From Planctomycetaceae bacterium (GTDB lineage Bacteria; Planctomycetota; Planctomycetia; Pirellulales; Pirellulaceae), in NCBI GenBank assembly GCA_002724245.1, contig PBOG01000054.1:1-46320 (forward strand): 46,320 nucleotides of DNA, read 5' to 3'. This document shows, piece by piece, positions 6,975-46,192 of this stretch. How positions within the stretch are numbered: the stretch's first letter is position 1; every line of letters begins with the position of its first letter. A program made the translations under genes and the position numbers. Below the pieces are notes generated by a model. It did no database searches and was not told the origin of the DNA. It saw only the letters and a list, made by a program, of their open reading frames with translations.

Positions 6975-7546
6975 GAGCAGTCCCGAGAACACGGAATTAA
7001 GGGCTTGGCTGAGGCGCGAAGGCCACGGCGTACGAAGCGAGCTGGTGATCGAAATTTGCCATGGCGGCTACGGGGATCGCGATTGTCAGACTGGCACATG
7101 GTGTCATTTGCATGCCCTGCCGGTCGGAGATCTAGACGGATTGAGGTCAAACATGACAGGGCCAGCACGCTGCCACGGGTTGCTGTGGTTGCAGGAGCAG
7201 TAGGACACTGGTGTATTGTAGCGTGACCGGAGGCCGAGCGGACTATATGTTCAAGCAGCTTTTTGGCGGATTGGACAGCTGCATTCACCGCCGAGGATGG
7301 CGTCTGTTGGCAGAGACAGCGGTCGCAATTGGCCAGCGCGCTGCTGATCGGGTAGCCCGGTCGCAAGCCTCAGCAAGTCCGAGGGCCTGTTAGGCTTTTT
7401 CCTGCCGTTGTTCATTCAACCACCCAGGCCAGCCAGTTCGGCGACCGGTGGTCTGGGTAGGGAGAGATTTCAGTGGGAGGAGTTTTCCCGATCCGGGTAC
7501 AGGGCCAGATTGAAGTCTAGCCAGATCCGGTGTTCAATACGAACAG
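6975..7546. other. Intergenic stretch without a recognisable gene
   Basis: About 570 bases separate the start of the thioredoxin-fold gene from the tRNA. The open frames here have no family features and overlap one another. A weak stem (AAGCCT near 7365 with AGGCTT near 7391, followed by T residues) could be a terminator on the plus strand, but no plus-strand gene ends there. I see nothing else. Confidence 0.5.
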
Positions 7547-7621
7547 TCGGGGCGAGAGGATTCGAACCTCCGACCTTTTGACCCCCAGTCAAACGCGCTA
7601 ACCAGGCTGCGCTACGCCCCG
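7547..7621 (-). tRNA. tRNA-Pro (anticodon GGG)
   Basis: The minus strand folds as a full 75-nt cloverleaf. The acceptor CGGGGCG pairs with CGCCCCG, T8 is present, and the D stem GCGC pairs with GCGC. The anticodon stem TTTGA/TCAAA encloses the loop C-T-G-G-G-G-G, with GGG after T33. The T arm has the loop TTCGAAT and the discriminator base is A. The anticodon reads CCC/CCU proline codons. CCA is not encoded. A sigma-70-like promoter lies upstream at 7672-7701. Confidence 0.93.
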
Positions 7622-30103: not shown

Positions 30104-32539
30104 TCATTCTTGCTGTGGGGCGGGTTCTGGTTCATCAAACAGTAACCTGCCAGCTTCAACCGTATGTGTTTCTTTGTGGCCAGAGGGCCAGCTGATGGAC
30201 AGCGTCATCGGTCCCTGGTGGCCGCCGATTCCGAAAATCGTCTCGGTTGCGTTTTGGGAAGAGTAGCTGTTTTGTGGGAAGTGGTCGCGGACAAGAATAT
30301 GGTCACCGACAGTAAGTTGCAGCCGCGCGCCGATTCCCTCCGGATTGGACGTGTGCCCCCGCAGCGTGACATGAAGTGAGCGGTGTTGGGTGATTCGGTT
30401 GAGGAAGATTTGCAGCGGTCCACCACCCACACCACGCACAACCAGATCTGGGCGCCCGTCTTCGTTCAAGTCCCCGACTGCGACGGACCTTGAGTCGGCG
30501 TCGATATCCGTTGCACTGATGTGGGAGACATCGGCGAAAACGCAATCGCCTTGATTGAAGAACAGCCGATTGCGTTCAAACATCGAGAGGTTGAACCCTT
30601 TAAGTCGCTGGAAATCGAACGGGTTTTCCAACCAGAATTCACCCAGGTTGTCGTCCAGCTTGCGTGGCGAAGCGTGTCGAAGTTCCATGTTGAGCGGCTG
30701 CGCAGCCACAGCCTGCCATATGCAACTTCACCCGTCCGGTTTTTCTGGATCATTCGAGTTGTAGCCACAGGGTGCGTAGAGGTCTAATTGACCATCGAGG
30801 TCAAAGTCAGCCATGGCGCCAGACCAACCCCAGCCGACTGCATTGACACCGGCACGCACACTGGTTTCCTGGTAGCTCTGTTGTCCCTGAGCACGGTATA
30901 GTCGATTCCCGGTAACAGACGCCACAAACATGTGACGAACTTCCTCGGGGTAGACTTCCATGGGCAGGTGGTGATAGATGCGGTGGCCTGCTTTGGAGTA
31001 CATGTTCGCGACGTACAGGTCGATGTCGCCGTCGCCATCCAAATCGCCGCTGGTGACGCCCATAGAAAACCCGCCAAACTCTTTGTCTACATCTTCCACT
31101 TCGAGGAAACGTTTCCCTTCCTGGTTGATGAGAAACAAATTCCGACCAAATTCATTGGCAGCAAACAGGTCCGGCCAGGGGTCGTCGTTCGCGAAGAGCC
31201 AGGTGGCGGCGAAGGCGCGGCCACGTGCGGGTGATGCGTTGGTTGCATGTGTTACATCTTCAAACCGGCCGTTGCCCAGATTGCGGAAGAGCAGGTTTTC
31301 CTTGCCGAAGATGCGTTGGTTGTCGAAAAAACCTTTCGTCTTGGCATAAAACGAAGGGAACTCGCGACCGGCGTTTAACAGGTAGATATCGGTTTTTCCG
31401 TCTCGGTCGAAATCACACAGGCTGGCGTCTGCGTTAGGCAGTTCCACCGCCCCTGGGATCAACTTCAGCGTTTCATCGCTGTTTGACCATGCGTAGAATT
31501 TCCCACCGAAGAGAACTTCTCGACGACCGTCTCCAGTGGTGTCAAAAATGGCGGCGAAAGGTACAAAATATTCCTTTCCGTTCACGGAGGTGGTTTCAAA
31601 AACAGGCGATTTCCATCCGCTGTCGCGAAACGTACCATCGCCATTTCCCAGGTATAGCCAGCCACGGCCCATACCCGTGACCAGCAAATCCAGATGTTTG
31701 TCGTGATTGATGTCGCCCAAATAGGGGCCACCCGTAAAGTCGTAATAGGCCTTGTCTTTCCAGTTGTCATGCATGGCGCCGGTGTTAATTCCGGAGCTTA
31801 CTGTGGTCTCTTCAAACAGGTGTTTTGGTGCGGCCAGGAAAGAGATGTCTTCCAATACGAGTTGGTGAATCCAGCCTGCCTGGAGTCCACCGTTCGTTGG
31901 TGGAGATTCGGTTGTGACATCAATTCCCTGGTGTTTCAGTCGGAATGAGCCCTGCAACTCTAACAGGCCACCTGTCTTGGACTGGCCAGCGATACGAAAT
32001 GTGCCCTGACTTTCCCCGACGACGTCTTGCCCGCCAACGATCGAAGGGGCATTTCGTTTTCTTCCAAACGCGATTGACTCAATCTTCTTGAATTGGTCGT
32101 GGAGGTCGTCGATCCAGGAAAGAAAACCTGAGCTGTCGAGGCGTTTCCCGGCGGATGAATCTGTAGCAAAACGATAAGTAACGTCGCGTTTTGCGTCGCC
32201 GACATCCTTCGGTACGGTGGGAACGGTTGCCTCAAAATCAGGTGCCAACAGCGAGTGGATCCCCTTTCGATCTCCCTGTTTTATCGCCGTATAGAGGGGC
32301 TTGAGCGCCTTTCCCAGCAGCAGGTCGGCGCGTTCCAGGTCAAACAACAGTTGGCGTTGTTCAAGCGTCAAATAGGAGTCTGGAATGGCTGGTTCGGAGG
32401 CCGCCGATGTGGTGGCATTAGGCTGGGGTGTGAGAACTGGTTCTGGCACTGGCTCCTGTGGGGCGCGTTGCCAGAGATAGAAACCGATGATGCTTGCTAG
32501 CCCGAGTACGATGCAGCCGAGTAGGACCTGGATCCGCAT
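30104..32539 (-). CDS. FG-GAP/VCBS propeller-ASPIC protein, probable selenoprotein (UGA at 30728-30730)
   Basis: Read through one UGA, this is an 811-residue protein. An N-terminal membrane anchor (residues 4-23) and proline-rich linker are followed by an NTF2/SnoaL-like region (about 45-230). A beta-propeller follows with repeated D-x-D-x-D-G calcium loops (D-G-D-G-D-I-D-L-Y, D-L-D-G-Q-L-D-L-Y). The UGA (residue 604) is in K-P-D-G-U-S-C-I-W-Q-A-V. After it come another blade (D-S-R-S-V-A-V-G-D-L-N-E-D-G) and the ASPIC/UnbV domain (G-I-G-A-R-L-Q-L, W-P-S-G-H-K). The tandem neighbour at 32709-35135 has the same architecture and the same UGA. A stop would remove a blade and the whole ASPIC domain. 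The protein probably acts outside the cytoplasm; its reaction is unknown. Confidence 0.8.
30696..30713 (-). promoter_or_regulatory. Candidate SECIS hairpin, second propeller gene
   Basis: GGCUGU pairs with GCAGCC (five Watson-Crick pairs and one U-G) around the loop GGCUGC, which begins 20 nt after the UGA and starts with GG. An alternative stem, GGCU/AGCC closing GCGC, uses the same bases. It occupies exactly the same codon positions as the hairpin in the paralogue. Confidence 0.55.
30728..30730 (-). other. In-frame UGA, probable selenocysteine codon (U-S-C)
   Basis: TGA on the minus strand lies between K-P-D-G and S-C-I-W-Q in one continuous frame. The paralogue has UGA at the same aligned position. 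Confidence 0.78.
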
Positions 32540-32708: not shown

Positions 32709-35135
32709 TCAAGATGTCGGTGTAACCACTTCTTGAACCTCAAAGGTGTCTGCCGACTCTCTGATTATAATGTCTCGATTTACGGGGAGTTGTTGCATTT
32801 CCTGGACCTTCCCGGTGGGCCAACGAATTTCGATGCGGTCAATTTGTGTTACGTCTCCGACACCAATCAGCAATTGGGGAGGGCCTTGTCCCATAAAAGG
32901 GTTCGGCGCGAACAGATCACGGACAATCTGTCGGCTGCCACAGTGGAGGATGACGCGAGAACCAATAGCAGGCCGGTTACTGGTTTTGCCGACGAGATGC
33001 AGACGCACCCAGTGACGTGGTGGAAACCGGTTCAGGAACAAACGCAAAGGTCCACCACCTACCGAGCAAACCAGCAAGTCGACTGCCCCGTCACGATTGA
33101 AGTCCGCGGCCACCACTGACCGTGAATCCGCATCGATGTCGGCTGCGGATGCGAACGAAGCATCCAGGAATGGATTGTTTGGAACGTTCAAGTAGAGGCG
33201 ATTCGGTTCAAAGGCGCTCAGGTTTTTGCGTTCGGCAGGCATCGTGAAAGGGTTAGCTACCCAAAATTCACCAGCTTCTTCATCCAGCGTTCCTAGCTGA
33301 GGTAATTTTTCGGTGCGGTCTAAAGGCTGTGTCACGACAGCCCGCCAGAGACACGTTCACCCATCCGGTTTGTGGCGATCAAACGAGATAAATCCGGTCG
33401 TCGCGTAGAGGTCGAGCCAGCCATCCGAGTCGAGGTCAGCCATCGCTGGTGCGTAGGCCCAGCCGACTGCGTTGACCCCGGCCTCGTCACTGGATTCGCG
33501 GTAGGCGCCTGCGGCGCGGTTAGAATACAGGCGGTTTCCGGCACATGACCCTTGAATCTGTTGGAAGATCCCGGCAGGGTAATCTTCCTCGGATACATGT
33601 GCGATGATCCTGCGGCCCATCTTTGAGTACATGTTGGCCACGTAGAGATCCGACTGTCCGTCATTGTTCAGGTCCCCGGCGGCGACTGCCATGCTGGTGG
33701 CGAAATCGCTGGTACCGGAAGCTTCAGAAAGGTCTTCGAACGTGCCGTCGCCGCGATTGCGCAGCAGAACATTGTTACCGAAGTCGTTGGCCAGGTAGAG
33801 GTCTGGGTAGTGGTCCTGGTCAAAAAAGAACCAGCATGCACCAAGCGTGTGTCGGCGGCCGCCACTGTAACCTTGTGAGGCGGAAACCAGTCGGAAACGA
33901 CCATTTCCTTCATTATGCCACAGTTGATTTTCGGCTCCCGACTGGTTGTCGCCAACCCACTGCTGCTCTCCTTGGTGGAGGCTTTCAAAGCCTCGCTGGT
34001 ACTGCACGTAAAGGTCGAGATAGCCATCACAGTCGTAGTCCGCGATCTGACAGCCCATTGATTGACGATGGAACCGTAATCCAGAAGCTGCGGTCACATC
34101 GACAAAACGCTTTCCGGCTTCGTTGTGATACAGTCGATTTCCCAATAGCAGGTCGCTGAAACCGTCGTTATCGTAATCGATCCATCCAGCAACGTAGGTA
34201 CGAGGATCTGCCGTGGTGCGGATGCCAAGGGAAGCGGCGACATCCTGGAAACGCTGGCCTTCAACAAACTTCAACAGGAAAAATTTTCCATCAAAGCACG
34301 AAAGCGCGATGTCCAGCCATCCGTCATGGTCGTAGTCCTCGACGGCCATCTGATAGCGATAGTCTTCGGGAACTCCGTCGATAAGCGACCAGTTATCGAC
34401 GAGTTCGAGTTCTGCCAAACCCAGTTTTTCGGTTGTCTCCTCCATCAGGGTTTGCTGCGAGATGCATTCGAGGATCTGCGTGATTTTCCAGCGGGTGATT
34501 ACCGCCTCTTTTTCAAGTTCCTGATCTTCCTGAAAACAGCAGGTAACGTCATGTTCCGACTGCAGCTTGATTTGTTCGCCAGATTTGCCCTCACCGTATG
34601 CCGTCAGCAGTAGCCTGGCTTGCCAGGCGTCGGGCGAATTCGTGGCACGATCGATGGACAGTACCCGGAGCTTGGGTTGTTGGATTTCCTGAAACTTGTC
34701 GAACCACGCGACCAGGTGACTTGCCAGTTGCGGTCCCGTGGCAGCTTGGGATGCATTGTCATCTTCTGACCAGACAGTTTCACTCAACACACTGTGTGAG
34801 CGGGTTTGTGGCTGATCAAGCACCAGCGTGGAGCCTGTAAAAGATGTTGCAAAGAGGGTTTGCAGTTGCGCAGCGTCGCGGGCTTTCCAGGCATCGACAA
34901 AGCGGGTCGCAAAACGATTCTCTAACTCAAAGCTGGTGTGTTCCGCGTCCCATATGTGCTGCTGTTTGACGGGATCGAGAACGACTTTGACGTCAGAAGT
35001 TTTGGTGTTCAATTCGCCGGTTGATTCAGGTGTAACATCGATGGCTTCTGGTCCGTCCGTCTGGCGGGCACCGCAGCCACCGCATAGCAGCAGTCCCACG
35101 AGGACGGCGGTGGATAATTGGATAGGAATGGCCAT
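32709..35135 (-). CDS. FG-GAP/VCBS propeller-ASPIC protein, probable selenoprotein (UGA at 33357-33359)
   Basis: Read through one UGA, this is an 808-residue protein. The N-terminus (hydrophobic S-T-A-V-L-V-G-L-L-L-C-G-G-C) is a signal peptide, possibly of lipoprotein type. An NTF2-like region (about 60-240) precedes a calcium-loop beta-propeller (D-Y-D-H-D-G, D-Y-D-N-D-G, D-L-N-N-D-G). The UGA (residue 593) is in K-P-D-G-U-T-C-L-W-R-A-V-V. It is followed by a further blade (D-S-R-S-V-V-A-A-D-F-N-R-D-G) and the ASPIC/UnbV domain (A-I-G-S-R-V-I-L, W-P-T-G-K-V). I chose the ATG at 35135; ATG 35150 and a longer frame to 35369 exist but would place sequence before the signal peptide. A small lipoprotein gene lies 148 bases upstream. 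Function unknown. Confidence 0.8.
33325..33342 (-). promoter_or_regulatory. Candidate SECIS hairpin, first propeller gene
   Basis: GGCUGU and ACAGCC form six perfect pairs around the loop CGUGAC, which begins 20 nt after the UGA; a flanking G-U pair can extend the stem. The second loop base is G. Position and stem are shared with the paralogue although the loop and codons differ. Confidence 0.58.
33357..33359 (-). other. In-frame UGA, probable selenocysteine codon (U-T-C)
   Basis: TGA on the minus strand lies between K-P-D-G and T-C-L-W-R in one continuous frame. It aligns with the UGA of the downstream paralogue. Confidence 0.78.
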
Positions 35136-35677: not shown

Positions 35678-37180
35678 TCAAGGGGCCCCAGATTTAGTCG
35701 GTTGTTCGCCAGTCGGTTGTTCGCCAGTCGGTGCGAAGGGAACAGCGGGGGAGTTGGCGGGCTCTGCGGGCCTGATTTCTTGCTTGGGCGGTTCTCCGTA
35801 TTTTTCCACCAGTGCGAACTGGTCCTGCCACGCTTTGGCTTCGCGCTGCATTCCCAGGTCCGTATAGAACTTGACCATGATGTTGTAGCAATCTCGCGTG
35901 CCGAGATTGGCCAGCGCGTCACGTACCTGGGAGTGTTGTTCGCGTTCCATAAGTTTCTCTATTTGCTTGGCCTTTTCAAGCTCTTTTTGCGCTTCCTGAT
36001 GTTTTTGCAGTTTTTGGAGGCAAGTTTTCTTGCGATGACGGGTTTGCCAGTCGACCGGGCCGGGCCAGGAGGCCAACGCCTGTTCGAAAAGATTAGCGGC
36101 TTGTTCGTCGTCGTCATCCAGTTCGGAGAGCAGCACAGCTTGCCACTTGAAATAATCGTACCCTTTTTGGGCGGTGGGCCATCGCTTGAATGCTTCACGG
36201 GCTTCGTCGTATTGGCCCAGATCGGTCAGGCAGCGAATCAGCGTAGCGACGAAGAAGGGATCTTCGAACCGTTTGTCACCGAGTTTTTCGGCCGCTTCAT
36301 CCAGCATGCGTTTGGCAAAATTGGGATCGGTTTCGTCGAGGAACCACTTGGCCAGGGCGGCATGGGCGACAGGCCAGGTGGGTTCGACCTTGCGGAAATA
36401 ATCAAACCGTTCGTACTCATTGTCGCTACTGGGAACTTCTTCGGTGCCCAGCAAACCCATCTGTCTTTCCAACATCAGGTTGGCCGTCGGGGCAAAAAAC
36501 TGTGTCATGTACCATTGACGCAAGCGGACCGGCCGTCGGTCTGGATGGGTCAATTCGTAGACACGCCAAAAGATTTCTTCAGACCAGTCGGCACGCCCTG
36601 TCAGTTCCAACAGTTTCCAGAGCAGGAAGTGCGATTCTTCATCCTTAGGGTTGAGCTTGATCGCTTCACGCAATGCACTCTCGGCCAAGCCCAGTTTGTG
36701 TACCATCATCAGGTACAATTTTCCCTCTTTAGCCCGAGCCTGGGCGCCTTGAGGCGCTTCGCTGGGAATGTTCCGCAATTGGGTCAACGCCTCTTTCACA
36801 GCATCTTCATGGGTCAGGCTTTCGTCGTGGATCAAGGCCTCCACAAGCAGCAGCTGTGCGTCTCCATCACTGGAGAATAAGGGGAACTGCAAGTACTCTT
36901 CCAGTTCGAGTCGCGCGTGCTTCCACAGGTTGGGGAGGTTCTCTTCCTGCGCGCGTTCGATCATCTTTTCGGCGCGGGCACGGTTCCCGAAGGTCTGCAT
37001 CCCCAACCAGCTAAAGGCTCCTGTAACCAAGACGAGAAGAACAAGCCCTGTCAGAAGCAGTGGCTTCCTGGAGGGAGTTGCACTCGCCGTATCCCCAGTC
37101 ACAGATGGTGCGGAATCATGGGAAACAGTTTCAACGTCGATGGGATTCGTGGAAGATTCGCGAGGCTCAGTCATGATCAA
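35678..37180 (-). CDS. Membrane-anchored TPR-repeat protein
   Basis: The protein has 500 residues. The first 38 are hydrophilic and cytoplasmic, then comes one membrane helix (about 41-60). After that there are about 380 residues of helical repeats of the tetratricopeptide type, such as L-G-L-A-E-S-A-L-R-E-A-I-K-L-N-P and D-L-G-Q-Y-D-E-A-R-E-A-F-K-R-W-P. A charged coiled-coil region (Q-E-A-Q-K-E-L-E-K-A-K-Q) follows near residue 405. The C-terminus is proline-rich with a perfect direct repeat of G-E-Q-P-T. Its ATG overlaps the stop of the last tandem propeller gene by four bases (ATGA), so it is probably translated with that series. TPR regions bind partner proteins; here the obvious candidates are the propeller proteins. 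Confidence 0.82.
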   Translation of the reverse strand: MIMTEPRESSTNPIDVETVSHDSAPSVTGDTASATPSRKPLLLTGLVLLVLVTGAFSWLGMQTFGNRARAEKMIERAQEENLPNLWKHARLELEEYLQFPLFSSDGDAQLLLVEALIHDESLTHEDAVKEALTQLRNIPSEAPQGAQARAKEGKLYLMMVHKLGLAESALREAIKLNPKDEESHFLLWKLLELTGRADWSEEIFWRVYELTHPDRRPVRLRQWYMTQFFAPTANLMLERQMGLLGTEEVPSSDNEYERFDYFRKVEPTWPVAHAALAKWFLDETDPNFAKRMLDEAAEKLGDKRFEDPFFVATLIRCLTDLGQYDEAREAFKRWPTAQKGYDYFKWQAVLLSELDDDDEQAANLFEQALASWPGPVDWQTRHRKKTCLQKLQKHQEAQKELEKAKQIEKLMEREQHSQVRDALANLGTRDCYNIMVKFYTDLGMQREAKAWQDQFALVEKYGEPPKQEIRPAEPANSPAVPFAPTGEQPTGEQPTKSGAP

Positions 37181-39084
37181 TCTCTGGTGTGTACGGACTG
37201 CGGTTCCGTTCCTTCGATTATAAGCCAGTAGCGATTAGTGCCAAGTTCTGACCAGTGGTCAACTCGCCCGGACGGCCAGTAGATGTCCAGCTCAACCTGC
37301 GTGACCGCTTCGCTCAGCCCAATCAGAAGACGTGGATCATTCGTCGATGCGTAACTGCCACCCGCGGTGATCAGTTTGGTGATTGTGATGTTTGGGGCGG
37401 TTACAACGACGCGGCCTCCCACTGGTGGCACTCGGTCGGCAGTACGCAAGTCCAACCCGAGAAACGGGCGGCCGTCGGTCGCGGTTTCATTGCGCAACAA
37501 CGCAGTGTTTTTGTACAAGTGGCTGATCGCGAGGTCGAGGTCGCCGTCGTTATCGTAGTCCCCGCCCGCAACCCCTCGTCCGACCCATTCTTGCCGGAAA
37601 TAAGTGCCCGCCGACTTGGAGATGTCGTCAAATTGTCCCTTGCCGTTGTTGCGGAAGAACTGCGGTGTCATGGCGTAGGGGTCGTAGTTTGGTCCCAGGA
37701 CATGGCCGTTCGTCGCGAACAGGTCGAGCCAGCCGTCACGGTCGTAATCGAATGTGACAGTGCCGAAACCTAACGTGTGGTAGCTGTGCTGTGCGATCTG
37801 CGTGCCTTTGCTCACATCCTGAAACCGCAACTGCCCGTGGTTGCGGTAGAGTGTGTTCTTGTGGTTGTAGAAATGGGTCAGGAACAAGTCGCTCCAGCCA
37901 TCGCGGTCAAAATCTCCGCAGGCAATTCCCATCGACGCCTCCACATAGCCCTGGTCGTCGACAGCAGCACCAGCGGCGGCGGCGATTTCCAAAAAGGGTG
38001 TCGATGCAGAATTGCTGTCTTGCAGCAAGAACGCGGGGCGACTGCGTGTGTACAGCAGGTTGGGTGACAGGTCATTGCCCACATAGAGTTCGGGTTGCAG
38101 GTCATTGTCGAGGTCGGCCGCCAAGGCGACGAGTCCTTTGCCCACTGTGCCGGCGAATCCAAATGATTTTGCCGACTCGGAGAATTGTCCATTACCCAGA
38201 TTGATAAAAAGCCGGTCGGGTAGGCCCGAGAATTCGCCGGGGCCGCAGAAGACGGGTTGCCCATTGACGTCACAGGTCTTGCTTTTTTGAAATGACCAAT
38301 CGATGTAGTTGACGACAAACAAGTCAAGATCGCGGTCCCCATCGATGTCGAACCAGACCCCGCCAAATCCCCACAACGGGTCACCGACACCAGCGGTATC
38401 GGTCACATCGTCAAACGTGCCGTCGCCGTTGTTGTGAAGCAGTGTATTGGTACCAAAATTGGTCAAGTAAAGGTCGGGAAAGCCGTCGGCGTCAAAGTCC
38501 CCGACGGCCACAGCGTGGCCGTACCCTTTGTGGTGCCCATTGGCGGTGACACCGACCTCGGCGAATTTTTGCTGCCCTAGATTACGGAACAGATGGTTGA
38601 CAAAGTCTCCCGACTGCGACCCGGGGCCTTGCAGACTGCTGCCGTTGACGAGGTACAAATCCAGACAGCCGTCGCCGTCGTAGTCGACCCATGCGGCTCC
38701 CCCCCCCATCGATTCTGGGAGAAAGAAGCGGCCTTCCACTTCGTCGTTGAAATATTGGAATTGGATACCGGCTTCGCTGGCGATGTCGACAAACTGAGGC
38801 GCAATGGAGAGTGCTGGCCCCGGCGGTTTGGGTCTTTCCTTGGGAGGTGTTGAATTTCTGAGTTCTTCAAATTCAGCGGGTGACAGGTTTGTGAACACAT
38901 CGTCCACCGTTTCCGGGGCACGGTTGCAACCGCACAGATGCCCTAGCAAGGCTGCCAGCAAGCACGTGCTCCACGGGCGCATCGCCAGCCATCGCGGGGT
39001 GGTCCTCTCGCTGAATGTTGAGCTGCTCGACATCGTACTGCTCGGTGCAGGCTGTGGCGTGATCTGTGTGTGGAAGAGGCTCAT
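37177..39084 (-). CDS. FG-GAP/VCBS propeller-ASPIC/UnbV protein (tandem copy 4)
   Basis: The protein has 635 residues. After a long leader there is a lipoprotein-like segment (L-L-A-A-L-L-G-H-L-C-G-C) starting from an internal Met. The propeller begins F-V-D-I-A-S-E-A-G-I-Q-F-Q-Y and carries repeated calcium loops (D-Y-D-G-D-G-C-L-D-L-Y, D-F-D-A-D-G-F-P-D-L-Y). A Cys pair at about 270 and 278 lies before G-P-G-E-F and could be a disulfide. The ASPIC domain ends W-P-S-G-R-V-D. The ATG at 39084 is preferred because it overlaps the upstream stop by four bases, like its neighbours, although an ATG nearer the hydrophobic segment could be the true start. Human CRTAC1 shares this domain pair; the bacterial role is unknown. 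Confidence 0.87.
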   Translation of the reverse strand: MSLFHTQITPQPAPSSTMSSSSTFSERTTPRWLAMRPWSTCLLAALLGHLCGCNRAPETVDDVFTNLSPAEFEELRNSTPPKERPKPPGPALSIAPQFVDIASEAGIQFQYFNDEVEGRFFLPESMGGGAAWVDYDGDGCLDLYLVNGSSLQGPGSQSGDFVNHLFRNLGQQKFAEVGVTANGHHKGYGHAVAVGDFDADGFPDLYLTNFGTNTLLHNNGDGTFDDVTDTAGVGDPLWGFGGVWFDIDGDRDLDLFVVNYIDWSFQKSKTCDVNGQPVFCGPGEFSGLPDRLFINLGNGQFSESAKSFGFAGTVGKGLVALAADLDNDLQPELYVGNDLSPNLLYTRSRPAFLLQDSNSASTPFLEIAAAAGAAVDDQGYVEASMGIACGDFDRDGWSDLFLTHFYNHKNTLYRNHGQLRFQDVSKGTQIAQHSYHTLGFGTVTFDYDRDGWLDLFATNGHVLGPNYDPYAMTPQFFRNNGKGQFDDISKSAGTYFRQEWVGRGVAGGDYDNDGDLDLAISHLYKNTALLRNETATDGRPFLGLDLRTADRVPPVGGRVVVTAPNITITKLITAGGSYASTNDPRLLIGLSEAVTQVELDIYWPSGRVDHWSELGTNRYWLIIEGTEPQSVHTRD

Positions 39085-40928
39085 GGCGGATCCGATAATG
39101 GGAGGGGCATTTGCCCCTCGTGGATCAGCCAATAGCGATTGAGTTCCAGATTGGAAAAGTTGTCGACGCGACCGGACGGCCAGTGAATCTGCACGCTGAC
39201 AGGACCTGCAGTCGGGTCGACACCGAATAGCAAACGGTCGTCGTTACTACAGAGATAGGTGCCTCCTGCAATGATCGGGGTCCACTGTTCGAGTCGCGGT
39301 GTTTTCAACAGAACACGGCCGCCCACCGGTGGGACTCGTGAGGTGGTTCGCAACATCAGTCCCAGGAAAGCCCGTGTGGAGGTAGTTTCGTTCTGCAGCA
39401 AGCTCACAGGTCGGTCGAGGTGTGTGATCGCGAAGTCGAGATCTCCATCATTATCATAGTCGGCGGAACCGAGTCCTCGACCGAGCCAGAGTTCCTGAAA
39501 ATAGGCTCCGGCGTGATCGCTGATATCATCAAAACGCCCCTTCGTTGTATTGCGCAGCAGTTGCGGTCGCATTGCGCTGGGTTGATGCTCTGGCCCAAAC
39601 ACATGGCCGTTGGCAACGATCAGATCCAGCCAGCCATCGCGGTCGTAGTCAAACGCTGTGGTGCCAAACCCTAGTGTCTCCATGCTATGGATGGCGACCC
39701 GCGTCCGCTTGCTGTTATCTACGAACCGAAGGCCACCGAGGTTCTGGTAAAGTGTGTTCTTGGCAAGGTGAAAATGCGTGAGAAATAAATCGAAATGACT
39801 GTCGCGGTCGAAGTCTCCGACTGCGATACCCATGCTTGCCTCCAGGTAACCGACGTCACTGAACGCAGCACCCGATGCAGCACCAACATTGATGAACGGT
39901 TTCGCTTCGTTTTTTGCTGCGTCGTTTTGCGCTGCGTCGGCAAATGGAGGCCGGCTTTGCGTAAACAGAAAGTTCTCCGTCATATCGTTGGCCACATAGA
40001 CTTCGGCCTTAAGGTCCTGGTCGAGATCAACCGCAGTCACCGCCAAACCCTTTCCTTTGTCGCGCTGTAGTCCCCATGGGATCGCGGATTCGACGAACGT
40101 GCCATCGCCTTGATTGACGAATAATTTATCCGGGACTCCTTCATATTCACCCGGGCCACAGTAGATGTGGATTTTCTCCATGTCACAGATCTTGTTTCCC
40201 TTGATCGACCAGGTGATGTAGTCTGCGACGAAAAGATCGAGATCGTCATCGCCATCGACGTCGAACCAGGTTGCCCCGAAACTCCAGACAGGATCTTCCA
40301 CTCCTGCTTCACGTGTCACCGGTTCCAGAGTCCCATCGCCATTATTTCGGAGCAAAGCATTGGCGCCGAAATTGGTCAGATAGAGATCGTCAAACCCATC
40401 GCCGTCATAATCGCCAACGAAGCAACCGTGGCCGTAGCCGCGATGTGCTGCGTTGGACAGAGAAGAAATCTCTTCAAAGCGGCCTCCTTGATTTCGGTAG
40501 AGTCGATTTCCCGGGCTTTGGGCTTGCTGCTTGGGGTCTGCGAGCAAACCACCGTCCATGAGGTACATGTCCAGCCAACCATCGTTATCGAAATCGAACC
40601 AACCCACACCACCACCCATGATCTCCGGCAGGAAGAAGCGCCCCGGTTGTTGGTCGTTCTGGTAGAGAAAGTCGATGCCGACCGCTTGTGCCACATTGAC
40701 GAAGCGTGGCGTGACGTCGGGAGCGGGGGACGGTTGGGACCCGCTGGGGCCAACCGCTGGCGAATCGTCATTTCGCAAGCCAAATCCGCCGTCCTTGTTC
40801 TGTTCGATGGTCTCTCCGGGAAGGATAGAGACCGGGGATGATTGAGACTCCGGATCCGTAGTCTCTCCACATCCACTGGCAAAGGCCGCAGTCAGGACAA
40901 GGGTAGCCCACCGTAGCAAGTTTCTCAT
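39081..40928 (-). CDS. FG-GAP/VCBS propeller-ASPIC/UnbV lipoprotein (tandem copy 3)
   Basis: This 615-residue protein has a lipoprotein signal, with F-A-S-G-C placing the lipidated Cys at 20. A low-complexity linker leads to the propeller (F-V-N-V-A-Q-A-V-G-I-D-F-L-Y) with E-I-M-G-G-G-V-G-W-F-D-F-D-N-D-G and several more Asp-rich loops. The conserved Cys pair is at about 247 and 256 (C-D-M and Y-C-G-P-G-E-Y). The ASPIC domain has P-P-V-G-G-R-V-L-L and W-P-S-G-R-V-D. Start and stop overlap both neighbours by ATGA. Sequence between the blades differs enough from the other copies to show old duplication rather than a recent one. A surface or periplasmic location is expected. Confidence 0.88.
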   Translation of the reverse strand: MRNLLRWATLVLTAAFASGCGETTDPESQSSPVSILPGETIEQNKDGGFGLRNDDSPAVGPSGSQPSPAPDVTPRFVNVAQAVGIDFLYQNDQQPGRFFLPEIMGGGVGWFDFDNDGWLDMYLMDGGLLADPKQQAQSPGNRLYRNQGGRFEEISSLSNAAHRGYGHGCFVGDYDGDGFDDLYLTNFGANALLRNNGDGTLEPVTREAGVEDPVWSFGATWFDVDGDDDLDLFVADYITWSIKGNKICDMEKIHIYCGPGEYEGVPDKLFVNQGDGTFVESAIPWGLQRDKGKGLAVTAVDLDQDLKAEVYVANDMTENFLFTQSRPPFADAAQNDAAKNEAKPFINVGAASGAAFSDVGYLEASMGIAVGDFDRDSHFDLFLTHFHLAKNTLYQNLGGLRFVDNSKRTRVAIHSMETLGFGTTAFDYDRDGWLDLIVANGHVFGPEHQPSAMRPQLLRNTTKGRFDDISDHAGAYFQELWLGRGLGSADYDNDGDLDFAITHLDRPVSLLQNETTSTRAFLGLMLRTTSRVPPVGGRVLLKTPRLEQWTPIIAGGTYLCSNDDRLLFGVDPTAGPVSVQIHWPSGRVDNFSNLELNRYWLIHEGQMPLPLSDPP

Positions 40929-42706
40929 GAATCAGACACCGATTGAGGTGGTCGTTTCTCCATTATAAGCCAGTATTGGCCAACGCCCAGATCGCAGGTC
41001 TGGACATATCCGGAAGGCCAGAAAATTTTCACTTTGACGGGCCCGTCATGCTTCCCCAGTCCGCACAGTAGTCGGGGGTCATTTGTGGAGAGATAGCTTC
41101 CACCGGTGACAATTGGAAACACGAGCGAGGTGTGCGGTAACTGGACCACGATACGGCCCCCAACCGCGGGAAGCCGGTTGGCCGTTTGGAGTTCAATCCC
41201 GACGAAGTGATTGGTGGCAGCTGTGTCATTACGCAGTAAGGCTACGGGTTGCTGCAGGTGGCTGATGAGCAGGTCCACATCCCCATCGTTGTCAAAATCG
41301 GCTGCCGCCATCCCCCGCCCCAACCAATCTCGAGAGAAATAGGGTCCTGCATCGGCGGAGACATCTTCAAAGTGCCCCCCTCTGTTTTTCAGGAGTTGAG
41401 GTCGCATGGCATACGGAGGACAATTGGGTCCTAGGACGTGCCCATTGGCAACGGCCAGGTCCTGCCAACTGTCGCGGTCGTAGTCTAAGGCAACGGTCCC
41501 GAATCCCAGTCGCTGCCAGCTTGGCTCAACGATGCCCGACTGCTGGCTGACGTCTGAGAAGCGGAGCTTGGGTTGCCCCGCATAGAGCGTGTTTTTTTGT
41601 TCAAAGAAATGGGTCAGGAACAGGTCCAGATGGGTGTCATGGTTGTAATCCAAGCAGACGATGCCCATGCTCGCTTCGGTGAACCCGTCTCCGCTCAACG
41701 CGCAGCCCGTTTCGCGTGCCCGATTCCGATAGCGGAGCCGTTGGCCATCGTCAGCGTGCTCAGAAGCGGTGGTTGTGTATAAAAAATTAGCCGATTCGTC
41801 GTTGGCCACGTAGATTTCCGGGCGGAGATCGTTGTCCAGATCCATCCCGGCGACTCCCAAGCCTTTCGGGTGTATTCCTGTGATTCCAAGTCGACTTGCC
41901 GCTTCCTGGAAAGTGCCGTTGCCTTGATTGAGGTACACCTGATCGGCCAGACCGCGGTACTTGCCGGGGCCGCAGTAGCCCACATAGCCGTCTCGTTCAC
42001 AGACTTGTGAATTGGCAAAATCCCAATCCAAGTAGTTTGTGACATAGAGATCGAGATCTTCATCGTGATCGACGTCGATCCAGATGCAGCTGAAGCTCCA
42101 GAATCGATCGTTGATGCGGGTCCGCTGCGTGATGTCTTCGTAGGTGCCGTCCCCATTGTTGTGCAGTAGCGTGTTACGTCCAAAATTGCTGATGTACAAG
42201 TCCGGAAACCCGTCCACGTCATAGTCACCGACTGCGCAGCCATGTCCGAACTGACGGTCGCCCGTCGAGGAGGCAAATGTGGCATCTTCAAAGCGTCCCT
42301 GCCCCAGATTCCGGTAGAGTCTGTTTTGGTGCCGGTTGGTGGGGGCGTAGGGGTCTTCTTCCAGACGACAACCATTGACCAGATAGAGATCGAGCTTTCC
42401 GTCCTGGTCGTAGTCGACCCAGCCGGCTCCACCTCCCATCACCTCAGGGAGGTAAAAGCGATCCGGGACTGCATCGTTGAAGTAGGTGAAGTCAATTCCA
42501 GACGCAGTCGCGACGTTGGTGAAGACGGGTGGGATGGACGGAGCAGAGGCACTGGCTGTGTGTTGATCAGGCCCGGAACTGGTTTTCGACTCAGGGATTT
42601 CAGCGAGTTGGCCATTCCGGCTAGCGAGGAACCAGTACAGCATGATTGCCGTGAACACAGTCACCACGGCTGTGAAGACTCGGCGAACTTGTCTTGCCAG
42701 ACGCAC
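40925..42706 (-). CDS. FG-GAP/VCBS propeller-ASPIC/UnbV protein (tandem copy 2)
   Basis: This 593-residue protein differs from copies 1 and 3 by having a plain membrane anchor (F-T-A-V-V-T-V-F-T-A-I-M-L-Y-W-F) instead of a lipobox. The propeller starts F-T-N-V-A-T-A-S-G-I-D-F-T-Y and has the loops D-Y-D-Q-D-G-K-L-D-L-Y and D-Y-D-V-D-G-F-P-D-L-Y. The Cys pair lies at about 235 and 243 (V-C-E-R and Y-C-G-P-G-K-Y). The ASPIC domain has G-G-R-I-V-V and G-G-S-Y-L-S. It is separated from copy 1 by 60 bases and coupled to copy 3 by an ATGA overlap. The function is unknown. Confidence 0.88.
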   Translation of the reverse strand: MRLARQVRRVFTAVVTVFTAIMLYWFLASRNGQLAEIPESKTSSGPDQHTASASAPSIPPVFTNVATASGIDFTYFNDAVPDRFYLPEVMGGGAGWVDYDQDGKLDLYLVNGCRLEEDPYAPTNRHQNRLYRNLGQGRFEDATFASSTGDRQFGHGCAVGDYDVDGFPDLYISNFGRNTLLHNNGDGTYEDITQRTRINDRFWSFSCIWIDVDHDEDLDLYVTNYLDWDFANSQVCERDGYVGYCGPGKYRGLADQVYLNQGNGTFQEAASRLGITGIHPKGLGVAGMDLDNDLRPEIYVANDESANFLYTTTASEHADDGQRLRYRNRARETGCALSGDGFTEASMGIVCLDYNHDTHLDLFLTHFFEQKNTLYAGQPKLRFSDVSQQSGIVEPSWQRLGFGTVALDYDRDSWQDLAVANGHVLGPNCPPYAMRPQLLKNRGGHFEDVSADAGPYFSRDWLGRGMAAADFDNDGDVDLLISHLQQPVALLRNDTAATNHFVGIELQTANRLPAVGGRIVVQLPHTSLVFPIVTGGSYLSTNDPRLLCGLGKHDGPVKVKIFWPSGYVQTCDLGVGQYWLIMEKRPPQSVSDS

Positions 42707-42766
42707 AGTGAGTTCCGCGCTAAAGAAGATGCTATGTGAACCTGCCTGGTGACATCGCGAGGATCA

Positions 42767-44560
42767 TTATTGTGCTGCAGTGGTGCGTACGGCTGGCTGA
42801 CCCTCACGAACCAGCCAATAGCAGTTAGGCTCCAGGTCGACCAGTTTGTCGACGCGTCCGGAGGGCCAGTGAATTTCCACCGTGACGTCGGAGGCTTTGT
42901 TGTCTAGGCCAAATAGCAACCGCTGATCCGAGGAAGACAGATAGCTGCCCCCGGCCATCACAGGGAGCATTTGCTGCTTGCCGGCGTGGTGGACGATCAC
43001 GCGACCACCGATGGGGGGAATACGGTTGGCAGTTGCCAATTCCAGTCCCAGGAAGGCTCGTCCGGTTTCCGTGCGATTTTCCAGGAGACCGAATGGATCT
43101 TTTAGATGGCTGATCGCCAGATCGAGGTCACCGTCATTGTCGAAATCCCCTCCCGCGGCCGCTCGGCCCAGCAGACGCCTCTCGAAATACGGTCCGCATG
43201 CCGAGGAAACGTCAACGAAATTTCCGGCACCTTCATTCTGCAATAACTGTGGGCGCATCCAGGAAATTTCGTGTTGCGAGCCAAGTACATGGCCATTGGT
43301 CATGAACAGATCGAGTGCGCCGTCGCGGTCGTAGTCGAACGCAATCGTGCCAAATCCCAGAGTATCGTAAGTATGCCGTGCGATCTTGGTGCGCCGACTG
43401 GCGTCAAGGAACTGCAGGCCATTGCCCTGGTTCTGGTAGAGTGTCCCTTTTTGTTGGTGAAAGTGGGTCAGGTAAATGTCATTGAACCCATTGCGATCGA
43501 AGTCTCCGCAGGCAATCCCCATGCTGGCTTCTTCAAGGCCACGTTCACTGACGGCACATCCGGCAACGGAGGCCAGGTTCAGGAACAGGTGGTCATTGTC
43601 TGATTCGATGAGTTTGGCGATGGGTGGGCGGCTTTGCGTGAAGAGGAAATTTGCGCACATATCGTTGGCGACATAAATCTCTGGCTTGGCATCATTGTCA
43701 AGATCGAGTGCGACAACTCCCAACGCTTTGCCTTTAGGTGCAGACAGGCCCAGCGTTTGCGCGGCATCGACGAAAGTGCCATCACCTTGGTTCAGGAAGA
43801 AGCGGTCTGGCTGCGCGTTGTAGTCGCGTGGGCCGCAATAACCGAAGGACTTGTCATACAGGCATAATTCGTGCTGTGCCGGATCCCAATCCGTGTAGTT
43901 GGCGACATACAAGTCGAGCAGCCCGTCCGCATTGGCGTCGACCCATAGCGTGCTCGTTCCCCACAGTGGATCTGCGACTCCCGCATGATTTTCCACGTGT
44001 TCAAAGGTGCCGTCTCCGTTATTTCGCAGGAGAGCATTTTCACCATAGTTCGATACGTACAGGTCGTAAAAGCCGTCGGCATCAAAGTCACCGACCGCGA
44101 CACCATGTCCAAAGCGGATGTCAGCGCTCGCTGCGGATTGGGTGACATCGGCGAAGTGGCCGTTCCCCAAGTTGCGGAAGAGCCGATTTTCAAATTCGCT
44201 TTGATTGGGGTCGGTTTTGACGAGTCGACAGCCGTTGACCATGTACAGATCGAGCCAGCCGTCGGAGTCAAAATCGACCCAGGCCACGCCGCCACCCTGG
44301 ATCTCGGGAATATAGAACCGGTCCGGGACTTCATCGTTGAAGTAGGTGAAGTCAATGCCCCGTGATTGGGCAATATCGACAAAGTGTGGGGGGATCGCGA
44401 GTTGGGGAGCAGCAGGCTTAACTGCCGTATCCCGGTTGGCGGGCTCAGTAGAAGGAGAAACAGCCGGCACCCCAGGGGCACCGGCTGTTTCTTCATTTCG
44501 ACTACAACCACTATGCATCAAGACCAGCATAATGGCCGCGGCGAACACCAGTTTGGTCAT
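42767..44560 (-). CDS. FG-GAP/VCBS propeller-ASPIC/UnbV lipoprotein (tandem copy 1)
   Basis: This 597-residue lipoprotein (M-L-V-L-M-H-S-G-C, lipidated Cys at 19) has the same layout as the next three genes. Its propeller begins [18 protein letters not shown] with repeated calcium loops (D-F-D-S-D-G, D-F-D-A-D-G, D-Y-D-R-D-G). The Cys pair lies at about 233 and 242 (L-C-L-Y and Y-C-G-P). The ASPIC domain has P-P-I-G-G-R-V-I-V and W-P-S-G-R-V-D-K-L. Its ATG overlaps the stop of the DUF1559 gene, so translation of the series appears to start with that pseudopilin-like protein. Binding of sugars, calcium or partner proteins at the surface is plausible from the fold only. Confidence 0.88.
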
Positions 44561-45771
44561 TGAGCACTGGAGTCCGCTGTAGTTTCGTTACCATCACGTG
44601 AACCCAGGGCCCACCACACTTGAGCGTCAACGTTTTCCTGGACGAATCCAACGGAACCGTCCGCACGGGCAACATTAACACCACCGGGGTGTTTGCTGGT
44701 TGCGCTCATCATGTTGGTGCCTTCCCAGTCATTCGTGTAAGAGTGACAGGGAGTTTCATTCGGCAGCATCGTGTGAGCATAAGCCGAGCCAGTTCCCATG
44801 AAGGACCAGGCCCAAGAGCGACCACGCATTTCTTGCCGCCAGCTCAGTTGACCGTTTCTGATGCGGACGTTGATGCAGTAAATACGATGTCGAGCGGTAT
44901 TCGAACCACTGGTCCAGGAGTGAACCATGTTCTTACCACGCGGCCAGTCGTACTGGGTGGATTCGGTTTTTTCCGCTTCCTTCCAGGTATCGACGACAAA
45001 CTCCGAGTAGGCAGCCGTGTTACTCGTACCATCGGTAATGGTCGAGAGTCGCACGGGCATACTACTACGGCACCAGCTATTGGGGTTCGGGCCGAAGAAC
45101 GCGGCGACACCATTGTGGCGTCCCCAGTCCATTCGGGCACTGGAACCACCGGCACCCGTCTTCGGGTCACCGTGCGGAGGCGAGTGAGCCGTACCGTGAT
45201 TGGTGGCGTAGGTGAACTGACCGCGACCACCGAAGTTTTCATAAGGCTGCGAGGGGCAGTTGAAAATCGGGATCTTGATCGACTGGGTACGACGGTTGGC
45301 GTTACTGTTACTCCAGTTCCATCCACCCGGATCGTACGCAGAACCTGTTCCCAGACGGTTGAATTCCTGGGTGAGGTCTCGATCGTTCAACGCCTGCGAC
45401 CAGTCCTGGTAGACGGCCGTGTTCTGGTTCCCGCCACCGGGCAGCTGCTTGAACGGATCGAAGATCGTCCGGTCATAGAACGTATCCAGTTCGAGATACG
45501 GCAACAGCGCGACTTTGTCGGCAAAACCACCGTCAAAGTTGTTCCACGGGCTCCAAGCGATCATGATCGGCAGACGCTTGTAGGTGTCGTGATAGTTGTG
45601 CGATGCCAGCACGAGTTGTTTCAAGTGGTTGTTACATTGGGCGCGCCTGGCAGCTTCACGCGCCATCTGAACCGCTGGTAAGAGTAACGCGATCAGAATA
45701 CCGATGATCGCGATGACCACTAGGAGTTCAACCAGCGTGAACCCTCTGTGGCGTCTGTGACTAGACCGCAT
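44557..45771 (-). CDS. DUF1559 pseudopilin-like protein with H-X9-DG motif
   Basis: This 404-residue protein has the type IV pilin/type II secretion N-terminus ([22 protein letters not shown]), in which the prepilin peptidase cuts before Phe. The planctomycete DUF1559 sequence follows ([16 protein letters not shown]) and the C-terminal [12 protein letters not shown] fits the H-X9-DG tag exactly. Such proteins occur in dozens to hundreds of copies in planctomycetes, probably at the cell envelope; their job is unknown. The ATG at 45771 has GGGAGG upstream and is preferred over 45807. It heads the minus-strand run and is coupled to the first propeller gene by ATGA. Confidence 0.93.
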
Positions 45772-46192
45772 TGTGAAGGACCTCCCAGAACGATAAAAAA
45801 GAAACATGAAAAATAACGTGAAACTCTGATGAGAAAAACGCCCAAATTGCCGAGCGCTTTCGCTGATTCTAGCTCAACGATAAGCCGTGTCAATCGATTT
45901 ACTTTTTTTTCGGTACTGAGAAGTTTATCTCATCGACGTGGCAGGGGTGGTCTCTGAAATCAACTCCGCAGGTTTCAGTGATGCCCGTTGTGGCGACCTT
46001 GATGGAATTGGTGTAAGTAGTTGTATTTAAAGCACTTGCGACTATCGCGGCGTTCCGCAATGCCGCCTGATGCGGAGTTTTTCAGGTGAAAATGACCGCG
46101 AGGACCGTCCGAGAGTACGTTTGTGAGCCGTTTACCAGGGTAGTGCCCGGTGATTGCTTGCCCCAGTGGATGTTTTTAACGAGGAGCTGCTT
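45772..46192. other. Intergenic region between the DUF1559 gene and def
   Basis: About 420 bases between divergent genes. The part near 45780-45910 is AT-rich and holds the promoter described separately. I see no gene or strong hairpin in the remainder and could not assign a def promoter. Confidence 0.5.
45866..45893 (-). promoter_or_regulatory. Sigma-70-like promoter of the DUF1559-propeller operon
   Basis: On the minus strand a perfect TTGACA (45888-45893) is followed after 16 bases by TAGAAT (45866-45871), five of six consensus positions. The predicted leader to the ATG at 45771 is about 90 bases. Confidence 0.62.

Follow-up and report, generated by a model that had tools for sequence, protein, structure and literature searches.

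The window analysed here is a stretch of 46,320 nucleotides (contig PBOG01000054.1, assembly GCA_002724245.1) from a Planctomycetaceae bacterium of the order Pirellulales, family Pirellulaceae. At positions 32709-35135 its minus strand carries an FG-GAP/ASPIC gene, delimited by its open reading frame and by Pfam matches, that starts with an ATG at 35135, ends at a TGA terminator (32711-32709) and encodes 808 residues when one in-frame UGA is read through. This UGA (33359-33357), the sole internal TGA of the gene, is codon 593 and is followed by 215 open codons encoding further propeller sequence and the ASPIC/UnbV domain (PF07593, 32772-32969). A first-pass annotation of the same DNA had placed a single TGA at 33357-33359 in the context K-P-D-G-[UGA]-T-C-L-W-R-A-V-V, and had described the propeller and the whole ASPIC/UnbV domain as continuing after it without a change of frame. 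The coordinates were right, and Pfam, which detected both FG-GAP repeats and an ASPIC domain above cut-off, locates the latter at residues 723-788, entirely downstream of the UGA; the minus orientation of the gene had been absent from that annotation. NCBIfam returned a single weak match to the product, under its cut-off. The N-terminus, judged by eye, resembles a lipoprotein signal. On the basis of the frame, its recurrence and aligned relatives, residue 593 is proposed to be selenocysteine (Sec), with Cys595 (33351-33353, minus strand), at position +2, as a candidate resolving thiol. A SECIS-like hairpin with a 6-bp stem and a 6-nt loop (33336-33331) lies at 33325-33342 on the same strand, with 20 nt between UGA and loop.

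An adjacent gene on the minus strand (30104-32539) is of the same kind, with an in-frame UGA at 30728-30730 in the motif KPDG-U-S-C-I-W, a SECIS-like hairpin at 30696-30713 and an ASPIC/UnbV domain at 30161-30337. Beside the two UGA genes, a one-strand run of genes (35678-45807, minus) encodes four ordinary ASPIC proteins, one TPR protein and one DUF1559 protein, and is perhaps one expression unit. The sole RNA gene reported in the window is a tRNA-Pro (GGG) at 7546-7621, also on the minus strand. In the source genome as a whole (7.79 Mb, 98.8% complete), a search for ASPIC returned 14 domains, whose surrounding open frame measured 207-215 residues in five cases and 515-914 in nine. All five short-frame genes carry KPDG-UGA-[T/N/S]-C-[L/I]-W with the UGA in the same column; four genes besides the one at 35135-32709 thus contain it, including the neighbour in the window. 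Six of the genome's ordinary ASPIC proteins were aligned, and in all six the loop that bears the UGA is wholly missing.

Recurrence in other genomes was assessed with the pattern K-P-D-G-(TGN)-x-C-x-W, which accepts any TGN triplet at the key position. Among 296 genomes of the order, 18 matches were found in 11 genomes, and the codon was TGA in all 18, indicating that UGA occurs at this motif beyond chance. The same pattern recovered at least 80 loci on GTDB contigs. Together the two scans yielded 98 loci (L027-L124), of which 97 were matched by script; one containing Ns (L088) was left out. The codon was TGA in 90 of these 97, TGT in five and TGG in two, and every hit in a propeller context had TGA. 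The seven non-TGA hits were considered as Cys or other forms of the motif and rejected as chance matches, since no propeller context could be seen by eye. Removal of these seven, of eight TGA chance hits (including L098) and of nine duplicates left 73 distinct loci. Because the locus filter itself demanded UGA, the absence of a Cys form among pattern-found loci rests on a reading of all 97 hits: no Cys version of the exact motif KPDG-x-C-x-W was present among them, nor among the 18 order matches. By record title the listed loci are from Planctomycetota, apart from 15 assigned to Verrucomicrobia, Verrucomicrobiales or Akkermansiaceae and two labelled only 'bacterium'. Homologues ending at the UGA would, according to the first-pass annotation, have refuted its reading; this is not what was found, as the downstream frame closes within the fetched DNA in 70 of the 73 loci and runs for 200-241 codons in 69 of those 70. 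One locus (L067) has extra in-frame stops, is apparently a broken or frameshifted copy and was excluded from protein alignments.

In the pattern-found loci the residues K, P, D, G, C and W are fixed by construction, a bias from which profile searches, which impose no motif, are free. In 70 genomes of the family, at least 126 profile matches were found in 29 genomes; 119 contained one stop, which was TGA, and seven contained none. In a partly overlapping sample of 199 genomes of the phylum, 45 genomes gave at least 92 matches, of which 85 contained a single TGA, one contained three and six contained none. Only the best candidates in each genome were scored, up to 32 in the family sample and up to 11 in the phylum sample, and the copy numbers are therefore lower bounds. 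Cys occupies the UGA column in six of the seven family-sample matches without a stop and in seven of the 13 UGA-less matches overall. Across 75 aligned loci the codon at this column is TGA in 62, Cys in seven, Ala in two, Asn in two, His in one and Arg in one, so that homologues with UGA and homologues with Cys, either of which the first-pass annotation had suggested looking for, both exist. These 75 loci are not a random sample: the UGA-less state is over-represented, because all 13 UGA-less matches were fetched on purpose and the UGA-bearing ones only in part. The six loci with Ala, Asn, His or Arg (L179, L233, L236, L237, L238 and L240) have no second Cys and may be relatives that lost selenol/thiol chemistry. 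The profile match with three in-frame TGAs is L241, in genome G354; one of the three lies at the Sec column.

The nucleotides immediately 3' of the UGA are conserved beyond what the protein requires. Over the 73 loci, codons +6 to +10 hardly vary at their synonymous positions (0.11-0.39 bits), compared with about 1-2 bits for most flanking degenerate codons and 1.97 bits for codon +11 (Pro). Codons +6 to +10 fold as GGCUGU-CGUG(U/A)C-ACAGCC, with 98.1% of cells paired in 72 distinct rows. Two-sided changes were seen in three of the six pairs (eight cells, against 0.5 in shuffled alignments), and the covariation score of 0.100, against 0.065 in shuffles, was equalled in none of 500. When the partner was slid by +2 columns the covariation was still 0.096, yet just 38% of cells were paired. 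Given the frozen synonymous positions and the compensatory changes, the aligned sequences indicate that the hairpin is under selection at the RNA level. The hairpin of the window gene has a predicted energy of -10 kcal/mol. In a 2026 review (PMC13188914), the bacterial SECIS model has a loop of 3-9 nt, a stem of 4-16 bp, a G within the first two loop positions and a UGA-to-loop distance of 16-37 nt. A scan for this geometry was satisfied by all 96 UGA genes, from both of the subfamilies described below; with an additional energy limit of -7.5 kcal/mol, 79 of the 96 passed and 17 missed, compared with 112 of 1706 control codons. The geometry was found in none of six Cys homologues (a seventh, L239, was outside this test). 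Of the 69 loci whose flanks were long enough, 30 fall under the label A3. In subfamily B a separate hairpin lies near the UGA, with 93.5% of cells paired, and covariation within B alone is weak.

The first-pass annotation had held that absence of the Sec machinery from the genome would count against it; the machinery is present in full. The source genome encodes a tRNA-Sec with anticodon UCA (70 bits), SelB (366.8 bits), SelA directly after SelB (560.9 bits) and SelD. The SelD gene (L215, contig C89) itself contains one in-frame TGA and therefore resembles a known selenoprotein within the same genome. A UGA-less SelD in another genome (L216, genome G216) has an open frame 737 residues long and is possibly a fusion protein. 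In the order sample, tRNA-Sec at 60 bits or above was detected in 9 of 11 genomes with the motif, as against 64 of the 285 without it (p = 8e-5). For SelA above 500 bits, the family sample gave 25 of 28 among the genomes with a UGA gene and 19 of 42 among the rest (p = 1.4e-4). Since the genomes are related, these values overstate independence and serve as a guide only. Many genomes that use Sec are without the UGA propeller family. There are also exceptions in the other direction. Genome G282 gave no hit for tRNA-Sec or SelD and has SelA; in G288 neither tRNA-Sec nor SelA reaches the cut-off and a SelD with UGA is present; and SelA was not found in G330 and G332 (82% and 86% complete), for which tRNA-Sec was outside the test. 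Most exception genomes are fragmented assemblies. G234, which is 99% complete and has a UGA gene (L178), has tRNA-Sec and no detectable SelA, and this case is unexplained.

The first-pass annotation had proposed a new selenoprotein family with a U-T-C motif. A family with UGA in many genomes is indeed what we find; it is multi-copy and comprises at least two subfamilies rather than a single gene, and U-x-C marks only one of them. Subfamily A, which includes the gene at 35135-32709, has the motif KPDG-U-x-C-x-W. Subfamily B has D-L-U-S-x-x-W-R, and its proteins are longer; at least 24 of at least 25 matches in genome G264 bear UGA, and genome G330 has at least 22 such matches. U-x-C had to be rejected as a defining feature, being missing in 22 of 23 motif-picked subfamily B loci and in L218. 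All eight long subfamily B proteins scanned carry an AhpC-TSA/redoxin (thioredoxin-like) domain after ASPIC, followed by TPRs. In 16 of 23 B loci, [FWY]CxxC occurs 267-287 residues past the UGA, and in two of the remaining seven the sequence is too short. No neighbouring gene with a thioredoxin-like WCxxC was found beside any of 55 subfamily A loci with a crude pattern. In the 62 profile-found UGA loci a second Cys lies at +2 in 28 and, without one at +2, at position 646/647 in 25; nine have neither. Thus 53 of 62 UGA loci have a second Cys at one of these sites, compared with none of the 13 UGA-less loci, although no distance data are available.

An AlphaFold2 model built with 47 sequences had a mean pLDDT of 88.9. 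In the model, a helix spanning residues 593-602 starts at the Sec position (Cys in the model). The best match among solved structures is murine CRTAC1 (PDB 9etn; VIA-align Z 35.8, rmsd 2.5 over 451 residues, 21% identity; Foldseek E 5.9e-26), so that domains and fold are common to these proteins and to the CRTAC1/ASPIC-UnbV FG-GAP proteins (PF07593, PF13517), whereas the UGA loop distinguishes the product of the window gene from the six ordinary ASPIC proteins aligned from its own genome. With selenoproteins of the SelB/bSECIS type, such as formate dehydrogenase and SelD, they share an in-frame UGA, a hairpin at the distance of the model, Cys homologues and the Sec genes. They also resemble the thioredoxin-like UxC/UxxC selenoproteins, as far as Table 1 of PMC13188914 represents these, in the U-x-C of subfamily A at the start of a helix and in the fusion of subfamily B to a thioredoxin-like domain. 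Unlike in those proteins, Sec is located in the propeller part, and U-x-C is missing from nearly all of subfamily B.

We consider that the UGA at 33359-33357 very probably inserts selenocysteine, an inference that is strong but drawn from sequence, as neither selenium nor a Sec peptide has been measured. Our reading as a whole, to which we assign a probability of about 0.88, is that Sec is decoded here by the standard pathway in a CRTAC1-fold propeller/ASPIC protein that is probably exported and has an inferred thiol/selenol role. SelD would supply selenophosphate to SelA for the synthesis of Sec-tRNA(Sec) (anticodon UCA), which SelB, bound to the hairpin just 3' of the UGA, would deliver. The predicted product would then carry Sec at the start of the short helix, in the loop that ordinary ASPIC proteins of this genome lack. 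Export is inferred from N-termini that look lipoprotein-like by eye. The second thiol with which the selenolate might pair would be Cys +2 here and, in most members of the other subfamily, Cys 646/647; a thioredoxin-like protein is another possible partner. The protein might function in the envelope as a thiol/selenol oxidoreductase or a peroxidase, for which there are no activity data. Such chemistry is inferred because the second Cys occurs only together with Sec, because subfamily B has the fused domain and because Sec stands at a helix start; without activity or distance data, the redox role of these Sec propeller proteins remains a hypothesis.

The alternative that survives best accepts Sec and disputes its function: the residue might bind a metal or act as the nucleophile of some other propeller enzyme, rather than form part of a redox couple. 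The second Cys is, after all, missing from both sites in nine UGA loci, W597 (75 of 75 loci) and E643 (74 of 75) are kept regardless of whether the residue in the Sec column is a thiol, and the six relatives with Ala, Asn, His or Arg in that column also speak against a redox role. A metal-dependent aldos-2-ulose dehydratase matches the propeller with a Z of about 20.5, but many unrelated propellers match equally well. Set against this are the fusion of subfamily B to a thioredoxin-like domain and the candidate partner Cys, which is present in 53 of 62 UGA loci but in no UGA-less locus; we regard a non-redox function as possible but rather unlikely.

Far less plausible is a reading without selenium, in which an ordinary amino acid is inserted at the UGA, or the codon serves as a programmed partial stop that yields two products, one short and one long. 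In its favour are the absence of protein data and a few genomes with a UGA gene but no detected SelA or tRNA-Sec. It would, however, leave unaccounted for the hairpin of SECIS geometry, the Cys in relatives and the co-occurrence with the Sec machinery; moreover, UGA is also an ordinary terminator in these genes, 35 of the 70 closed frames ending at TGA. For the same reason, and because the gene at 35135-32709 itself ends at TGA, a recoded UGA that is always sense was dropped. Sequencing error or gene decay, for which the one broken copy (L067) is the only precedent, can be set aside given five such genes in one genome, their occurrence in many genomes including the complete-chromosome record CP036526.1, and a downstream frame and domain that are intact in 69 of 70 cases. 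None of the three outcomes that the first-pass annotation had named as refuting it, the last being a sense codon on resequencing, has been encountered.

We conclude that Sec decoding through the hairpin remains the preferred reading, and the decoding system is a known one. What appears to be new is the protein family, together with its expansion and the presence of this fold among selenoproteins. The first-pass annotation knew of no selenoprotein in the FG-GAP/ASPIC class, and no ASPIC or FG-GAP selenoprotein was among the matches listed from the open-licence PubMed Central literature. Neither is represented among the 119 families and subfamilies of a 2026 catalogue, as far as Table 1 of PMC13188914 extends, and the fold is not thioredoxin-like. 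Sec insertion genes have been reported from planctomycetes P1 and P2, of the same phylum (PMC4807772); the selenoproteins named in that paper include FdhA and FmdB, and the terms 'aspic' and 'fg-gap' are absent from its main text. Because its S9 candidate table was not in readable form, an earlier unnamed sighting is not excluded. Apparently, then, Planctomycetota and Verrucomicrobiota have a large and so far undescribed family of propeller proteins that very probably contain selenium.

According to the 2026 review (PMC13188914), the majority of selenoproteins characterised so far adopt a thioredoxin-like fold, and it is chiefly anaerobes whose genomes are richest in selenoprotein genes; here, the proposed Sec is placed in a beta-propeller/ASPIC protein that is multi-copy in Planctomycetota and Verrucomicrobiota. 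We lean, with some reserve, towards the broader view that these proteins are a large superfamily of exported, Sec-dependent propeller enzymes in Planctomycetota and Verrucomicrobiota, reaching more than 20 copies in some genomes. They would constitute envelope oxidoreductases of a new class, in which Sec lies in a propeller loop, the partner Cys is movable and one branch is fused to a thioredoxin-like domain. If so, they would make up much of the selenoproteome of these phyla. Confirmation of Sec insertion would restore as whole genes a class that standard gene calling would split in two, provide a testable chemical handle on the unexplained bacterial ASPIC/CRTAC1 fold, and make selenium a nutrient worth considering in Planctomycetota and Verrucomicrobiota.
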